A DNA stretch of 64,000 nt. Origin: Streptomyces sp. NBC_01551 (GTDB taxonomy: Bacteria > Actinomycetota > Actinomycetes > Streptomycetales > Streptomycetaceae). The translations under genes and the position numbers were made by a program. The stretch is taken from positions 4,921,001 through 4,985,000 of the forward strand of contig NZ_JAPEPX010000001.1 of NCBI RefSeq assembly GCF_026339935.1, written 5' to 3'. Numbering within the stretch: position 1 is the first letter of the stretch; every line of letters starts with the position of its first letter. Below, in pieces: positions 1 to 56,036 of this stretch. The notes under the pieces are model-generated. The model made no database searches. It saw only the letters and a list, made by a program, of their open reading frames with translations, and was not told the DNA's origin.

Positions 1-3
1 GGG

Positions 4-175
4 CGCACCGGGAGGTGCGTGACGTAGGTGTCCAGAGGTCGAGTTCGGCGAAACCACGTGGTGCTCTGCCAACTGAGCTACACCGGCTCGGAAGCCGGTG
101 ACGGGACTCGAACCCGCGACCGCCCCATTAAGAGTGGAAGTAGGTCTCGCCTTCGCACCTGGACGACTCCTACGT
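4..175 (-). repeat. Inverted-repeat arms flanking the permuted tRNA (leader/trailer helix)
   Basis: Sequence on either side of the split tRNA is complementary in nested order. 47-55 (ggcgaaacc) pairs with 143-151 (ggtctcgcc, one G-U). 30-35 (gtccag) pairs with 159-164 (ctggac). 22-28 (acgtagg) pairs with 169-175 (cctacgt). Additional short pairs (AGGT/ACCT, CGA/TCG) fill the gap between the first two blocks. In the transcript the leader and trailer would therefore form one long imperfect helix that holds the two open ends of the split anticodon stem together. Outside it, 4-19 forms a separate hairpin (cgcacc-ggga-ggtgcg), possibly a 3' end. Everything here is direct pairing; the role is inferred. 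Confidence 0.7.
60..137 (-). tRNA. tRNA-Lys (anticodon CUU), circularly permuted gene
   Basis: Read on the minus strand, the 3' half comes first (137 to 93) and the 5' half second (87 to 60). The 3' half has an anticodon loop CTCTTAA (134-128, anticodon CTT), the anticodon 3' strand TGGGG, a 5-nt variable loop, a T arm with loop TTCGAGT (112-106) and acceptor strand CACCGGC (100-94). The 5' half starts with GCCGGTG (87-81), which pairs perfectly with that acceptor strand. It continues with T8/A9, D stem GCTC/GAGC, a GG-containing D loop and A26, and ends in CC (61-60). Joining position 60 to 137 gives a perfect CCCCA/TGGGG anticodon stem. There is no encoded CCA and the discriminator would be U, both odd. 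No contiguous copy is present in the window. Alternatives are a tRNA-like structured RNA, or an att-type half-tRNA relic next to another fragment. The halves are seen directly; maturation is inferred. Confidence 0.75.
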
Positions 176-215
176 TAGGCGGCGGCCGCGGACCGCCGCG
201 AACGGTTTTTCCGGC

Positions 216-785
216 TCAGTCCCGCGCCGCCGCGTCCGCGCCCGACCGCAGCCGCTCGCGGGCCTCCATCAGGGCGAAGCCCAGCAGGTTCAGCCCGCGC
301 CAGCGCGCCGGGTCCAGGGCGCGCTCGTCGTCGGCGGCGAGGCCGATGCCCCAGATCCGGTCCATCGGGCTCGCCTCCACCAGCACCCGGTTCCCGGTGC
401 CCAGCAGGTACCCCCGCAGCGCCGGGTCGGAGCCGAACTTGTGGACGCTGCCCTCCACCACCAGGGCGAACCGCTCGCGCTCCCACATCGCGTCGTCGAA
501 GCCGCGCACCAGGCGCCCGGCCTGCTTCGCCGCCGCCGGGCTCGTCGCTTCCAGCGCGGCGCGCTCCGCCTCGGCGTCCCCGAACAGCCGGGCCTTGCCC
601 GCCATCATCCAGTGCTCCGCCGTCGCGTACCGGACGTCACCCACAGTGAAGGCGGACGGCCACCACTGGCTCAGACAGCTCGGCCCGAGCGACCCGTCGA
701 GCCGCGGCCGGTGCCCCCAGAACGGCAGGAACTTCACCCGCTCACCGCTGCTGACCTGCCTGATCAAGCCATCGATCATTTCCAT
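216..785 (-). CDS. NADAR-family protein (YbiA/RibX-like)
   Basis: A protein of about 189 aa with the motifs of the NADAR superfamily: an N-terminal FLPFWGH, then SQWWPSAF, a central YATAEHWMMAGKA helix, KFGSDPALRGYLL, and LVEASPMDRIWGIGL near the C-terminus. Members act on ADP-ribose-linked or ribose-linked substrates. YbiA-like proteins are linked to riboflavin intermediates, and some NADAR proteins remove ADP-ribose from guanine in nucleic acids. The substrate here cannot be read from sequence. I chose the ATG at 785 because conservation begins shortly after it; the frame stays open to 875, so the start is uncertain. The stop is followed by a short CCGG-A5-CCG hairpin and then a GC-rich stem (180-198). 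The gene lies just upstream of the permuted tRNA on the same strand, about 80 nt away, so co-transcription is possible. Confidence 0.75.
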   Translation of the reverse strand: MEMIDGLIRQVSSGERVKFLPFWGHRPRLDGSLGPSCLSQWWPSAFTVGDVRYATAEHWMMAGKARLFGDAEAERAALEATSPAAAKQAGRLVRGFDDAMWERERFALVVEGSVHKFGSDPALRGYLLGTGNRVLVEASPMDRIWGIGLAADDERALDPARWRGLNLLGFALMEARERLRSGADAAARD

Positions 786-933
786 GCACGCGAGTCTGGC
801 AGTCGCCACTGACACTTCGTACGGGATTTTCGTTGTGCCTCGACACATGGTCGACCGATTCCGTCGCGTAATCAAAAGGCAACAACGGAATCACTTGGCC
901 GAGGGTCCCACCTCTGTCAGGATCGGCACTCAA

Positions 934-10758: not shown

Positions 10759-11564
10759 CCGTCCTCCGGTCCGGGGCCCCGCGCGGCTCCGGACCGGCCG
10801 GGCGGGCCGGCGCCGCGGCGTACGGACCGCGCGACGGCCAGCAGCAGGGGGAGGCAGAGGAAGCAGCTGGCCAGGACGTCCAGGGGCCAGTGGAAGCCGC
10901 GGACGATCAGGCCGGCGGCCGTGGCGGCCGTCAGGGTGAGGGCGGCGGCCATCGGCCACGGGCGGCGGGTGTACGGGGCGATCAGCAGCGCCGCGCCGAG
11001 GTAGGCGACGGCGGCGGTGGCCGTGTGGCCCGAGGGGTAGTAGCCCGCGGCCCAGGGCTCCAGCGGGCCCGGGCGGGCGGTCCACTCCTTCAGCGGGATG
11101 ATCAGCGCCGGCACCAGGGCCATCGCGAGGCCCGCCGTCAGGGCCGGGGCCCAGGCGCGGGAGCGCCGCACGGAGTACGCCATCGCGAGCGCGAGGACCG
11201 GCAGCGCGACCGGGATGTTGCCGAGGTCCGCGAGGCGTTCGGTGACCGCGTCGGGGACGGTGCGGACGAGGGCGCGGCTGAGGTGCTCGTCCGGCGTGAG
11301 CAGCGGGCCCGTGACCAGGACCTGCCAGGTCGTCAGGGCGAGGCCCAGCAGGGAGAAGAGGAGGAGAGTGGCCGGCCGTCCCGGAACAGGGGGGATGGTT
11401 CCGGGACGGCCGCCCGGATCGGGTTGCCGCGCGCCCCGGGGGGTTTGGGGCGGACGGCCGTCCGATCGGTGAGGAGCGTGCGCGAACGCATGCCCGGTAC
11501 GGCGCTGGGGAAGCCCGGTACCGGGATCGTCCCCGGTTTCCCGGGAACGGGCTGTCTCACTCAT
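10743..11564 (-). CDS. PAP2-superfamily membrane phosphatase
   Basis: A 273-aa membrane protein with about five or six hydrophobic segments after a polar 70-residue N-terminus. All three acid-phosphatase motifs are present: KEWTARP, PSGHT and RGFHWPLDV, which contain the Lys/Arg, the Ser-Gly-His and the nucleophilic His with its Asp. Such enzymes dephosphorylate lipid phosphates, such as undecaprenyl pyrophosphate or phosphatidic acid, on the outer membrane face. The start is taken as the ATG at 11564 (MSETARS); the frame is open to 11633. The C-terminal tail is Pro/Gly-rich. Substrate unknown. Confidence 0.88.
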   Translation of the reverse strand: MSETARSRETGDDPGTGLPQRRTGHAFAHAPHRSDGRPPQTPRGARQPDPGGRPGTIPPVPGRPATLLLFSLLGLALTTWQVLVTGPLLTPDEHLSRALVRTVPDAVTERLADLGNIPVALPVLALAMAYSVRRSRAWAPALTAGLAMALVPALIIPLKEWTARPGPLEPWAAGYYPSGHTATAAVAYLGAALLIAPYTRRPWPMAAALTLTAATAAGLIVRGFHWPLDVLASCFLCLPLLLAVARSVRRGAGPPGRSGAARGPGPEDGQPPK

Positions 11565-11697
11565 CTGCAGAAACCGTACGGCAGCGAAAGGGGGACCGAC
11601 AGCGGGAACGCGCTCCCGCCATCGGCCCCCCACACCTTCTTCACAGTGCCCGACCGTTACCGGCGGTATGGATTGGTCACCGTGTTCGGGCGTTCGC

Positions 11698-46031: not shown

Positions 46032-48734
46032 CTATCCGCCGAGGCGCGGGTCGCGCGGGGGCTGACCGGGCTGCGGGGCCTGCGGGGCCTGTGGCTGCCA
46101 GGGCTGGCCGGGCTGCGGGTAGGGCTGGGCGTACGGCTGGGGCTGCTGCGGGGGCTGCTGGTACTGCGGCTGGGGGGCCTGCGGTTGCTGCGGTTGCTGG
46201 GCCTGGGGCTGCTGCGGGGCGCTCCAGTTGGCCTGCGGAGGCTGCTGCTGTGCGCGCAGGAAGTCCTCGGCCACCAGGGCGGAGAGGTTGAAGTACGCCT
46301 CGCGGGTCTTGGGCCGCATCAGGTCCAGATCCACCTCGGCGCCGGTCGCGAGGTGCTCGTCGAACGGGACCACGACCACGCCGCGGCAGCGGGTCTCGAA
46401 GTGCTGGACGATGTCCTCGATCTTGATCATCTTGCTGGACTCGCGAACACCCGAGATGACGGTGAGCGAGCGCGAGACCAGCTCGGAATACCCGTGCGCC
46501 GAGAGCCAGTCGAGCGTGGTGCTCGCGCTGCTGGCCCCGTCCACGGACGGCGTCGAGATGATGATCAGCTGATCGGCCAGGTCCAGGACGCCGCGCATGG
46601 CGGAGTAGAGGAGTCCGGTGCCCGAGTCGGTGAGGATGATCGGGTACTGGCGGCCGAGCGTCTCTATGACGCGGCGGTAGTCCTCGTCGTTGAAGGTCGT
46701 CGAGACGGCCGGGTCCACGTCGTTGGCGATGATCTCCAGGCCGGAGGGCGCCTGCGAGGTGAACCGCCGGATGTCCATGTACGAGTTCAGGTACGGGATC
46801 GCCTGCACGAGGTCCCGGATCGTCGCACCGGTCTCGCGGCGCACGCGACGGCCGAGGGTTCCCGCGTCGGGGTTCGCGTCGATGGCCAGGATCTTGTCCT
46901 GGCGCTCGGTGGCGAGGGTGGCGCCGAGGGCGGTGGTGGTCGTGGTCTTGCCGACGCCGCCCTTGAGGCTGATGACGGCGATGCGGTAGCAGGACAGGAC
47001 CGGCGTACGGATCGCCTCCAGCTTGCGCAGCCGCTCGGCCTCGGCCGCCTTGCCGCCGAAGCGGAAGCCGGAGCGCTGGGGCTTGGCCTTCTGCTTGCCG
47101 CGCAGCAGGCGGTCGGAGGACAGCTCGACGGCCGCGGTGTACCCGAGCGGCGCCCCACCGGCGGCTTGGGCGGCCGGGTAGTGGGAGTCGTACTGCTGGG
47201 GCTGCGGGTACGGCTGCTGCGTCCACTGCGCCTGGGCCTGCGGATCGTACGCGGCCTGGGGCTGCGGCTGTGCCTGTGCCTGCGGCTGCTCAGGCTGCGG
47301 TGCCGGGAATCCGTACCCGTGGGGCTGCTGTGCCTGCGGCTGCTCAGGCTGCGGTGCCGGGAATCCGTACCCATGGGGCTGCTGTGCCTGCGGCTGCTCA
47401 GGCTGCGGTGCCGGGAATCCGTACCCGTGGGGCTGCTGGGGCTGCGCCTCCTCAGGCAGCGGTGCCGGGAACCCGTACCCGTGCGGCTGCTGGGGCTGGT
47501 TCTGCTCCGGCGGCGGGAACCCGTAGCCGTCCTGCGGCCCGGCACCCGCGAACTGCGGTGGCAACGCCGACAGTTCCCCACCGGGTACCGGTGCGGGCGC
47601 GGCATAGGGATTGTCCGCGACGGGCGCGGGCGCCGCGTCGCCCGGAGCCCCGAAAGACGCCGGAGCCGGCGCGGCGTCAACCGGGCCAGGCCCCCCGAAC
47701 GGAGCGGGTGCGGGGGAGTCGCCGACGGGAGCCGGGGCCGGTGCCGCGTCTACGGGGGCGGGCCCCCCATACGGGTTGGGCGAGGGCGCATCGCTGACCG
47801 GGGCCGGAGCCGGGGGCGTGAAGGGTGCGGGAGCCGGCGCCGCGTCAACCGGGGCCGAGGCTGCGAGGGGTGCTGAGGCAGGTGCGGGCGCCGTGTCAAC
47901 CGGGGCAGGTCCCCCGTACGGGTTGGGCGTCGGTGCGGGCGCCGCGTCGGCCGGAGCCGGAGGTGCGAACGATGCCGGTGCGGGCGCCGCGTCAACCGGG
48001 GCAGGTCCCCCGTACGGGTTGGGCATCGGAGTGGGCGCAGCGTCGCTCGGAGCCGGAGGACCGAACGGTGCGGCGGCCGGCGCCGCCTCGACCGGGGAGG
48101 GCGCCCCGTAGGGGTTGGGTGCGGGCGCCGCGTCAACCGGCGCCGGAGGCGCGAACGGTGCGGGCGCGGCCGCCGCGTCGACCGGGGTGGGTCCCCCGTA
48201 CGGGTTGGGTGCGGGCGCGTCACTGACCGGAGTCGGAGCCGGGGGCGTGAACGGTCCGGGAGCCGGGGCCGCATGAACCTGGGCAGGGGCAGGGGCAGAC
48301 GCATCAGCGACGGGAGTCTCGGCAGCCGCTGCCGCGACCGGTGCGGGCGTTTCGACTGCCTCGGCAACCGTCACCGGCGGAGCCGGGACGGCGGCCTCGG
48401 GTGCCGGAGCAGGGGGTTCCACGGCCGGGGCGGGGAAGGCGCCAGGCGGCTTCGGCGCGCCCCCCTCGTCGCCGGGGGTGCGCTGCGCGGGCGGGCCGAT
48501 CCGCATGGTCGGCGGAGCGGCCACCTCCGAAGGGTGGTGGGGTTCGAAGCCGCTGCCTTCGGGGAGACCCGGCACCGGCGTGGTCGGGGCAGGAGCCGCC
48601 GCACCCTGCGTGTACCAGGCCGGCGGGGTGTAGTCGATGGTGAACTCGCCCGTCGTCTCGGGCTCCGCGTCGGACTGATCGTCCGTCGGGACGTCCCACG
48701 TCCCGCCGCGCCTCTCGTTCCGATCGCCGCTCAC
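46032..48734 (-). CDS. EspI-like type VII secretion-associated ParA ATPase with long Pro/Ala/Gln-rich N-terminus
   Basis: A 900-aa protein. About 520 residues of low-complexity sequence come first: a [20 protein letters not shown] repeat region and then four or five copies of an 18-residue [22 protein letters not shown] unit. A ParA/MinD-type ATPase follows (about 575-830): deviant Walker [27 protein letters not shown], and a Walker B-like region around [12 protein letters not shown] Gln/Pro-rich tail ends the protein. EspI of mycobacterial ESX-1 has the same plan, and in Streptomyces a homologue sits at one end of the ESX locus. GTG 48734 is supported by GGAGGA. The gene appears intact although the rest of the locus is decayed. 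Confidence 0.85.
47281..47520 (-). repeat. 54-bp tandem repeats inside the EspI-like gene
   Basis: The 54-bp unit begins at 47281, 47335 and 47389, the first three copies nearly identical, with diverged copies continuing to about 47520. Each encodes an 18-residue [22 protein letters not shown] unit. The period is a multiple of three, so copy-number change would keep the frame. A second family of longer, less regular repeats (units containing [12 protein letters not shown]) covers about 47640-48260. Confidence 0.9.
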
Positions 48735-53582: not shown

Positions 53583-53798
53583 CTGTACGTGCGCGACGCA
53601 CCGGACGCTTTGTAGTCTGAGAACGCGCACACCGAAGAGGAGGAGCGCCCTCCCTACGCCGCCGGTCCTCGGTAGTGGCATCCGGAAGGCCCCCACGGGC
53701 CACGCACCGGGTGCTTCGATCGAAGACCGGCCCGCACGCCAGGAGCGCTTCTCCGACACCGTCCTCCACCACACGGGTGGCGGACGGAGACGACGAAT

Positions 53799-56032
53799 AT
53801 GGAGAAAACGCTAGTGGAGAACGAGACCCACTACGCCGAGGCCGTCATTGACAACGGTTCCTTCGGCACCCGCACCATCCGCTTCGAGACGGGCCGTCTG
53901 GCCCGCCAGGCCGCCGGTTCCGCCGTTGCCTACCTGGACGACGACACGATGGTGCTCTCCGCCACCACCGCGTCGAAGAAGCCCAAGGACCAGCTCGACT
54001 TCTTCCCCCTGACGGTGGACGTCGAGGAGCGGCAGTACGCGGCCGGCAAGATCCCCGGCTCCTTCTTCCGTCGTGAGGGCCGGCCCTCCGAGGACGCGAT
54101 CCTCACCTGCCGCCTGATCGACCGCCCCCTGCGCCCGTCCTTCAAGAAGGGCCTGCGCAACGAGATCCAGGTCGTCGCGACGATCATGGCCCTCAACCCC
54201 GACCACCTGTACGACGTCGTGGCGATCAACGCCGCCTCCGCGTCCACGCAGCTGGCCGGTCTGCCCTTCTCCGGCCCGATCGGCGGCGTCCGCGTCGCGC
54301 TGATCCGCGGCCAGTGGGTCGCGTTCCCGACGCACACCGAGCTCGAGGACGCCGTCTTCGACATGGTCGTCGCCGGTCGCGTCCTGGAGGACGGCGACGT
54401 CGCGATCATGATGGTCGAGGCCGAGGCCACCGAGAAGACCATCGCCCTCGTCAAGGGCGGCGCCGAGGCGCCGACCGAGGAGATCGTCGCCGCCGGTCTG
54501 GACGCCGCGAAGCCGTTCATCAAGGTCCTGTGCAAGGCCCAGTCGGACCTCGCCGCCAAGGCCGCCAAGCCCGAGGGCGAGTTCCCGGTCTTCCTGGACT
54601 ACCAGGACGACGTGTACGAGGCCCTCGCGGCCGCGGTCAAGGGCGACCTCACCCAGGCGCTGACCATCGCGGGCAAGCAGGACCGCGAGGCCGAGCTGGA
54701 CCGCGTCAAGGAGATCGCCGCCGAGAAGCTCCTCCCGGCCTTCGAGGGCCGCGAGAAGGAGATCTCCGCCGCCTACCGCAGCCTGACCAAGGCCCTGGTG
54801 CGCGAGCGCGTCATCAAGGACAAGGTCCGCATCGACGGCCGCGGGATCACGGACATCCGTACCCTCGCCGCCGAGGTCGAGGCCATCCCGCGCGTGCACG
54901 GCTCGGCGCTGTTCGAGCGTGGCGAGACCCAGATCCTGGGCGTCACCACCCTCAACATGCTCCGCATGGAGCAGCAGCTGGACACCCTCTCCCCGGTGAC
55001 CCGCAAGCGCTACATGCACAACTACAACTTCCCGCCGTACTCCGTCGGTGAGACCGGCCGCGTCGGTTCGCCGAAGCGCCGCGAGATCGGCCACGGCGCG
55101 CTCGCCGAGCGCGCGATCGTGCCGGTCCTCCCGACCCGCGAGGAGTTCCCGTACGCGATCCGTCAGGTGTCCGAGGCCCTCGGCTCCAACGGTTCGACGT
55201 CCATGGGCTCGGTCTGCGCCTCCACCATGTCGCTGCTGAACGCCGGTGTGCCCCTCAAGGCCCCCGTCGCCGGCATCGCCATGGGTCTGATCTCCCAGGA
55301 GATCGACGGCAAGACCCACTACGTCGCCCTCACCGACATCCTCGGTGCGGAGGACGCGTTCGGCGACATGGACTTCAAGGTCGCCGGCACCAAGGAGTTC
55401 GTCACCGCGCTCCAGCTGGACACCAAGCTCGACGGCATCCCGGCCTCCGTCCTGGCCGCCGCCCTCAAGCAGGCCCGCGACGCCCGCCTCCACATCCTCG
55501 ACGTGATGATGGAAGCGATCGACACGCCGGACGAGATGTCCCCCAACGCCCCGCGGATCATCACCGTCAAGATCCCGGTGGACAAGATCGGTGAGGTCAT
55601 CGGCCCCAAGGGCAAGATGATCAACCAGATCCAGGAGGACACCGGCGCCGAGATCACGATCGAGGACGACGGCACCATCTACATCGGTGCCGCCGACGGC
55701 CCGGCCGCCGAGGCCGCCCGCGCCACGATCAACGCGATCGCCAACCCGACCATGCCGGAGGTCGGCGAGCGGTACCTGGGTACGGTCGTCAAGACCACCA
55801 CCTTCGGTGCCTTCGTCTCCCTCATGCCCGGCAAGGACGGTCTGCTCCACATCTCGCAGATCCGCAAGCTCGCCGGTGGCAAGCGCGTGGAGAACGTCGA
55901 GGACGTGGTCGCGGTCGGTACCAAGGTCCAGGTCGAGATCGCCGAGATCGACTCCCGCGGCAAGCTCTCCCTGATCCCCGTGATCGAGGGCGAAGCGGCC
56001 GACGCCGATGCCGACAAGGACGACTCCGACAA

Positions 56033-56036
<4 letters not shown>
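53799..56036 (+). CDS. pnp: Polyribonucleotide nucleotidyltransferase (PNPase)
   Basis: A 745-aa exoribonuclease/RNA polymerase using phosphate. Two RNase PH domains (about 10-240 and 330-560) flank a helical linker. The catalytic region includes [14 protein letters not shown] and [22 protein letters not shown] domain ([15 protein letters not shown], about 590-645) and an S1 domain (about 660-730) follow. GGAGAC upstream supports the ATG at 53799; an in-frame GTG at 53814 gives the more usual N-terminus ([15 protein letters not shown]) and is an alternative. Streptomyces PNPase also adds 3' tails in vivo. The stop overlaps the M16 start. Confidence 0.96.

Follow-up and report, generated by a model that had tools for sequence, protein, structure and literature searches.

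Bacterial Y RNAs are bound by orthologues of Ro60 through the stem that joins their two ends, and the tRNA-like domain forms the effector part of the molecule, according to the accessible text of two accounts of the family (PMC8394870, PMC4726728). YrlA (RF02553; Salmonella structure 6CU1) lies near rsr, has such an end stem, and carries D, T and acceptor arms in permuted order with the acceptor stem closed by a loop. The portion available of one of these accounts likens YrlA to the D, T and acceptor arms of tRNA and reports that it carries dihydrouridine and pseudouridine introduced by DusA and TruB (PMC8394870), and the available part of a structural study states that YrlA and tRNAs superpose with a circular permutation (PMC11472068). 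In the RYPER complex (Rsr-Y RNA-PNPase) of Deinococcus, the Y RNA serves as a tether between the Ro60 orthologue and its partner, as far as the accessible text goes (PMC4726728, PMC8394870). A permuted order is also found in the permuted tRNA genes of algae and archaea, in which the 3' half comes first and the halves pair across the break; the junction potentially forms a bulge-helix-bulge, the target of the splicing endonuclease, and a tRNA is the product (PMC3978253, in the part available).

The window analysed here is a stretch of 64,000 nucleotides from Streptomyces sp. NBC_01551 (NZ_JAPEPX010000001.1, positions 4,921,001 to 4,985,000). It starts inside a locus, whose flank was also fetched (L005), in which three Y RNA-like units stand in tandem ahead of rsr, all on one strand. 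The preliminary description had placed a permuted tRNA at 60-137 (-), and that core stands; its extent does not, as the feature runs from 164 to 30 and unit 1 is a larger element of 135 nt. The two ends pair with each other outside the tRNA-like part, and the permuted tRNA is the inner segment from 137 to 60. Read along the minus strand in tRNA numbering, this segment consists of positions 29-31 (CCA), the loop CTCTTAA, positions 39-43 (TGGGG), the variable loop, the T arm, the acceptor 3' strand CACCGGC, a six-base loop, the acceptor 5' strand GCCGGTG, the D arm, A26, and C27 C28. Thus the 3' half does precede the 5' half, the acceptor strands pair 7/7, and the anticodon stem pairs 5/5 across the break between 60 and 137, all as first proposed. 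The locus shares with YrlA the neighbourhood of rsr, the end stem, the permuted arms and the looped acceptor; it differs in that the RF02553 consensus has no anticodon hairpin and in that the window copy scores below the curated cut-off. On sequence grounds the element is almost certainly a Y RNA, and it is very probably one of the tRNA-mimic (YrlA) kind, the first of three units before rsr. Its features are listed in Table 1.

Table 1. Features of the Y RNA-like locus in the window (window coordinates).
Feature	Position	Strand	Remarks
Y RNA 1 (YrlA-like)	30..164	-	start presumed to lie close to or at 164; matched over its full length by model R1 (149 bits), the window copy being one of the 18 sequences used to build R1
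-10 promoter box TAACGT	172..177	-	conserved spacing in 18 aligned loci
Outer stem	5' strand 159..164, 3' strand 30..35	-	6/6 pairs in 18/18 loci
Inner Y stem	5' strand 143..151, 3' strand 47..55	-	9 pairs in the window copy
Linker TACTT (UACUUC with the next base)	138..142	-	invariant, 18/18
Anticodon-arm hairpin, tRNA positions 29-43, loop CUCUUAA	123..137	-	fixed-register and A2 counts
T arm, positions 49-65	101..117	-	5/5 pairs in 54/54 cores
Acceptor 3' strand, pairing with acceptor 5' strand	94..100 with 81..87	-	7/7 pairs in 53/54 cores
Loop capping the acceptor stem, without a CCA end	88..93	-	length differs among relatives
D arm	63..78	-	4-bp stem invariant, 18/18
Positions 27-28, paired with 42-43 across the break	60..61	-	54/54 cores, four pair types
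Start of Y RNA-like unit 2, short, without tRNA-like domain	1..15	-	resemblance and fold

Unit 3 also carries a tRNA-like part, and unit 2 resembles the ends of a unit only. The remainder of unit 2 precedes the window (about L005 4945-5015, minus strand); its fold has a z of -2.24, and it gave no Rfam match. The UACUUC linker also occurs in short units that lack the tRNA-like domain. Such a short unit was seen between or near long ones at L005, L009, L017, L018, L019, L022 and L024. The short units share GGTGCG..GG and UACUUC, and in most of the units in alignment A2 (see below) UACUUC again follows the stem. Upstream of the presumed start, a TANNNT box stands 7 nt before GTCCAGG in 17 of the 18 aligned loci and 6 nt before it in the remaining one; a generic sigma-70 scan found no promoter at Y RNA 1. 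The gene immediately upstream of the Y RNAs, likewise on the minus strand, encodes a NADAR-domain protein (window 216-875).

The gene 3' of the units (L005 3117-4751, minus strand) encodes a TROVE (Ro60/Rsr) protein (PF05731, E 2.7e-13). A scan of genome contigs gave at least 120 stretches, 83 of them with a model match, of which 82 were counted and L167 was left out. Among the matches listed, rsr stands downstream on the same strand in 73 of these 82 loci, with a median gap between unit and rsr of about 243 nt by extrapolation. In eight of the nine without a visible rsr, the fetched piece ends no more than 1025 bases downstream; L172 has 5667 bases downstream without an rsr match. Streptomyces, Kitasatospora, Planomonospora, Planobispora, Virgisporangium, Actinomadura, Actinoallomurus, Nocardia, Lentzea and Winogradskya are all represented. 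S. antibioticus DSM 40234 is one carrier of the locus. The uncounted L167 (3897-4274) is an AT-rich contig from a gammaproteobacterial MAG with a permuted tRNA-Thr(UGU)-like element and similar repeats, one of them apparently with an encoded CCA; no Rsr match was found in the contig.

The association also holds across genomes. Among 199 genomes of the genus, full-length R1 matches occur in at least 86, rsr in 98, and both in at least 83; the full-length matches listed extend to E 5e-10 (about 60 bits), and carriage of the RNA is thus a lower bound. Among the matches listed, three genomes have the RNA only, 15 rsr only and 98 neither, and the co-occurrence is strong (Fisher p 4e-36, counting the genomes as independent despite their kinship). 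The three genomes with a full-length match in which no TROVE protein was found (G149, G210, G220) and the 15 with rsr and no listed match speak against the Y RNA reading, as do orphan and plasmid copies with no rsr seen nearby. R1 matches at model positions 28-106 were not counted as Y RNAs; the one that was checked proved to be tandem tRNA-Asn genes. Because matches of this span can be tandem tRNAs, the raw tallies of 184/199 and 156/394 overstate Y RNA carriage.

A DNA search of 61 genomes gave some match in 46, and 18 loci (L006-L023, the window's included) could be aligned end to end, with a mean column identity of 87%. The structure of Table 1 leaves 97.3% of the alignment cells paired. 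Two-sided changes affect ten of its 37 pairs, where column shuffling would predict 1.7, a control that is lenient because the 18 sequences are related. When the structure was slid by 1 to 3 columns, 0 or 1 two-sided changes remained in five cases and 5 at a slide of -3. Three of the two-sided changes fall in the acceptor stem and two in the inner stem; in the latter, one pair is broken in 15/18 loci and L023 retains little of the stem. Both the outer 6-bp stem and the 4-bp D-arm stem are invariant in all 18 loci and therefore lack covariation support, which in the case of the outer stem weighs against the Y RNA reading.

A wider set of 54 distinct cores, the window's included, was obtained from loci L001-L146 by extraction in a fixed register, with no covariance model. 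These loci had been found by DNA similarity, by R1 (which itself contains the anticodon arm) or by RF02553, and the extraction detects only units with a 15-nt arm. The stem 29-31/39-41 is held in 53 of the 54. The junction pairs 27-28/42-43 are held in every core, as CC/GG (48), CU/AG (4), UU/AA (1) and CG/CG (1), and the bases at 15 and 48 are G-C in 48 and A-U in six. A further 70 cores came from a pattern scan; since the pattern fixes positions 29-33 and 36-41, they were kept apart, but it leaves the junction and 15-48 unconstrained. In these, among the matches listed, the junction reads CC/GG in 50, GC/GC in 11, CU/AG in three and GU/AC in two, with four other types once each (AC/GG not being fully paired), and 15-48 is G-C in 53 and A-U in 17. 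Comparison among relatives thus shows that compensatory changes maintain three arms (acceptor, T and anticodon) as well as the tertiary pair 15-48, with a D arm that never varies. The compensatory changes in both halves that the preliminary description suggested looking for in Streptomyces relatives are present. Nor do the halves vary independently, a finding that would have told against a permuted structure: pairing across the break is conserved, and it is this, together with the permuted anatomy, that ties the halves to each other.

Conservation of the stems is not matched by conservation of the anticodon. A quick tree built from 105 Rsr rows calls for a minimum of 12 changes for the junction pairs, eight for the 15-48 pair and eight for the hairpin stem, the last count being biased low because the tree mixes the 54-core and pattern-scan sets; the anticodon triplet requires at least 48, among 15 different triplets. 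These counts indicate that the stems are kept while the triplet changes freely.

The conserved and compensated five-pair anticodon stem across the break is what would be seen if, as first proposed, the feature were a circularly permuted tRNA-Lys(CUU) gene, whose precursor RNA would be joined into a circle and then cut at the acceptor stem to serve in translation. The genome also has a gene for the RNA ligase RtcB, though it is unlinked. Several observations nevertheless make this explanation highly improbable. A circularly permuted tRNA would conserve its anticodon, and this one changes freely on the Rsr tree. Three ordinary tRNA-Lys(CUU) genes are present in the same genome (98.56% complete), in which no match to the tRNA splicing endonuclease (PF01974) was found, in line with the earlier remark that bacteria lack this enzyme. 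Unlike the junctions of the algal and archaeal genes, that of the window locus shows no bulge-helix-bulge by inspection: one linker has 5 nt and the other varies in length, in place of two 3-nt bulges around 4 bp. The loop that joins the acceptor strands also varies in length among relatives, in some of which it contains UUCG, and the neighbour is rsr. The proposal of a tRNA gene that needs ligation is accordingly unsupported, and a functional permuted tRNA was rejected on the varying anticodons, the ordinary tRNA-Lys genes, the missing endonuclease match and the rsr neighbourhood.

A linear tRNA was also considered and rejected. ARAGORN calls no tRNA at the window locus; its calls on some relatives pair the 5' end of the Y RNA with the acceptor 3' strand and have poor D arms. 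They are taken as spurious, because among the 18 loci the acceptor stem has three pairs with changes on both strands, yet the GGTGCG of the 5' end never varies. Elsewhere in the window, the ARAGORN tRNA-Thr at 48472 looks spurious as well.

RF02553 matches unit 1 at 33-160 with 38.8 bits (E 5e-7) and unit 3 with 48.8 bits (E 6.6e-10), both short of the gathering score of 69 bits. None of 346 genomes has an RF02553 match above that score, and none of 20 loci reaches any Rfam cut-off. A tandem pair of tRNA-Asn(GUU) genes in the same genome outscores the window copy with 40.7 bits, and RF02553 alone therefore cannot separate a Y RNA from tandem tRNAs. These scores are a point against the Y RNA reading, and for this reason the identification relies on linkage to rsr, on the stems and on covariation; the unit is named YrlA-like and not a curated member of RF02553. 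The tRNA-Asn pair (G000:C1:1902637-1902714; L097 192-343, minus strand) has a 4-nt spacer and imitates a permuted tRNA. It matches R1 at 28-106, and matches of the same span, individually unchecked, occur in many other genomes. Tandem tRNA pairs can thus mislead searches for permuted tRNAs, and permuted mimics may plausibly have arisen from them.

The pair also gives substance to the idea that the window feature is a relic of tandem tRNA genes whose outer halves have decayed, so that the inner 3'-half/5'-half pair only looks permuted: the order is the same, the R1 match and the RF02553 score are as described above, and a tandem pair is a plausible evolutionary source. A relic, however, requires unconstrained drift of the halves, and the pair counts in the 54 cores show the opposite; compensatory changes, a conserved promoter box and conserved flanks in many species point to present selection. 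As an account of the present state of the locus, the relic is the least probable of the alternatives.

What distinguishes these units from YrlA is the anticodon arm. The RF02553 consensus has no anticodon hairpin, and the window copy has a 15-nt insert, uuccacucuuaaugg, that makes up most of it. Alignment A2, in which 150 matches from 82 loci, the 18 founding sequences among them, were fitted to the model (2 of 152 matches being omitted), has a 3-bp stem with a 7-nt loop in 76 units and none in the other 74. U33 and A38 are present in 76/76 arms. Base 36 is U in 55, C in 12, G in six and A in three; G36 is accompanied by G37 in 6/6, and U36 or C36 by A37 in 63/67. U33, A38 and such preferences between bases 36 and 37 are the rules of true anticodon loops. 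The arm is common in actinomycetes and their phages, in which some copies are annotated as tRNAs. Whether the element had been catalogued was left undecided in the preliminary description: the circular permutation is published for the structure of the Y RNA YrlA (PMC11472068, in the part available), whereas no description of an anticodon arm in bacterial Y RNAs was found in the accessible text of the literature searched, a search that covered sources other than the primary YrlA papers. Provisionally, the complete anticodon arm is considered a new element relative to the Rfam model and the published YrlA description. If it holds, these RNAs are unusually full tRNA mimics and offer direct tests of the binding partners of tRNA-like Y RNAs. 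Four other units (L102, L103, L104, L105) are Y RNA-like with a TCGTCCAGCGGCC-like D arm, presumably of the Glu type, a CTC/GAG stem and a CTGTCAA loop. Their tRNA-like domain was apparently derived from another tRNA. These orphan units have no rsr match in the 5 kb fetched.

Single-sequence folding bears on the arm only in part. Folded by itself to minimum energy, the window copy (z -2.33; 3/200 shuffles equally good) forms the end stems together with the acceptor, T and D arms; the anticodon hairpin is absent, that region being paired another way. The arm therefore rests on comparison and not on folding energy. The fold of unit 3 is unremarkable (z -0.79), no better than shuffles and without the expected shape. 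Both folds count against the Y RNA reading.

Similar units occur in phages. In a viral collection, 68 loci have the 18-base pattern and 35 of them a model match, and in 29 of the 35 an Rsr-like frame follows in the same orientation at a distance of up to 3 kb; several of the 35 look like duplicates (equal scores), and L317 is possibly Streptomyces, so that not all need be viral. Matches were found in 75 phage records. Six were examined, and three of these (prophiGD43A-5, Magritte, Cashline) have an annotated Ro-like RNA binding protein gene downstream of the match. In SM23 an 'RNA-binding protein' is annotated downstream, in Phabba the match lies within a tRNA array, and near the match in Olaya no Ro-like annotation was found. 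Three of the matches overlap with tRNA annotations: that in prophiGD43A-5 with a tRNA-Thr(tgt), that in Magritte with a tRNA-Arg(tct) and that in SM23 with a tRNA-Asn. What is called a permuted tRNA, or annotated in a phage as a 'tRNA' next to a Ro-like gene, may thus be a Y RNA. By eye, the Mycobacterium prophage prophiGD43A-5 (L336 2460-3200) has about five tandem Y-like units before the Ro-like gene, the first of which is annotated as the tRNA-Thr(tgt). Of the plasmid records, a single one, from Streptomyces, has a full-length match, and no Ro-like gene was found within 3 kb on either side in the PLSDB table, which is incomplete.

Sequence comparison shows that the two ends can pair into a long stem, which enters a complete cloverleaf between positions 28 and 29, with a loop capping the acceptor stem. 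By analogy with the known family, this end stem would bind Rsr. The tRNA-like domain would not be spliced into a tRNA; it would act as an effector module that recruits a partner, as with PNPase in Deinococcus, and Rsr, Y RNA and partner together would form a particle for RNA decay or quality control. The role as an Rsr tether is probable on this analogy. That PNPase is the partner in Streptomyces sp. NBC_01551 is a tentative suggestion, somewhat short of an even chance: the complex is known in Deinococcus, and in this genome the rsr and pnp genes are present. The PNPase gene stands at window 53799-56036, and its presence is weak evidence, since most bacteria encode PNPase. The anticodon arm would make the mimic readable by proteins that inspect anticodon loops, and would most likely broaden the range of tRNA-reading proteins available to the particle.

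A more specific reading is that the units form a widespread but undescribed subclass of Y RNA, in actinomycetes and phages, that mimics an entire tRNA and whose loops diversify between paralogues and species. Bound to Rsr, such an RNA might engage anticodon-reading enzymes or the ribosome as a decoy or guide, an idea to which we give a low probability. In a closely related and similarly doubtful form, the arm would be a decoy or sensor for anticodon nucleases or for the enzymes of t6A37 or m1G37, its loops diversifying to match the tRNAs. The invariant U33 and A38 and the dependence of base 37 on base 36 would suit this role, but these rules could also be inherited from the parent tRNA. At each of the five loci with more than one arm the loops differ, and copies exist in phages. 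The accessible part of one study suggests YrlA as a possible competitor for an anticodon nuclease; the same text reports, however, that Salmonella YrlA gave no fragments and thus was not cut by that nuclease (PMC7790460). Were the decoy or guide reading true, Ro60 particles would intercept tRNA damage or phage-defence nucleases. Two other RNA elements were seen in the window: an Actino-pnp RNA element followed by the PNPase gene (53661-56036, plus strand) and a match to the Scr5676 sRNA (11461-11566, minus strand).
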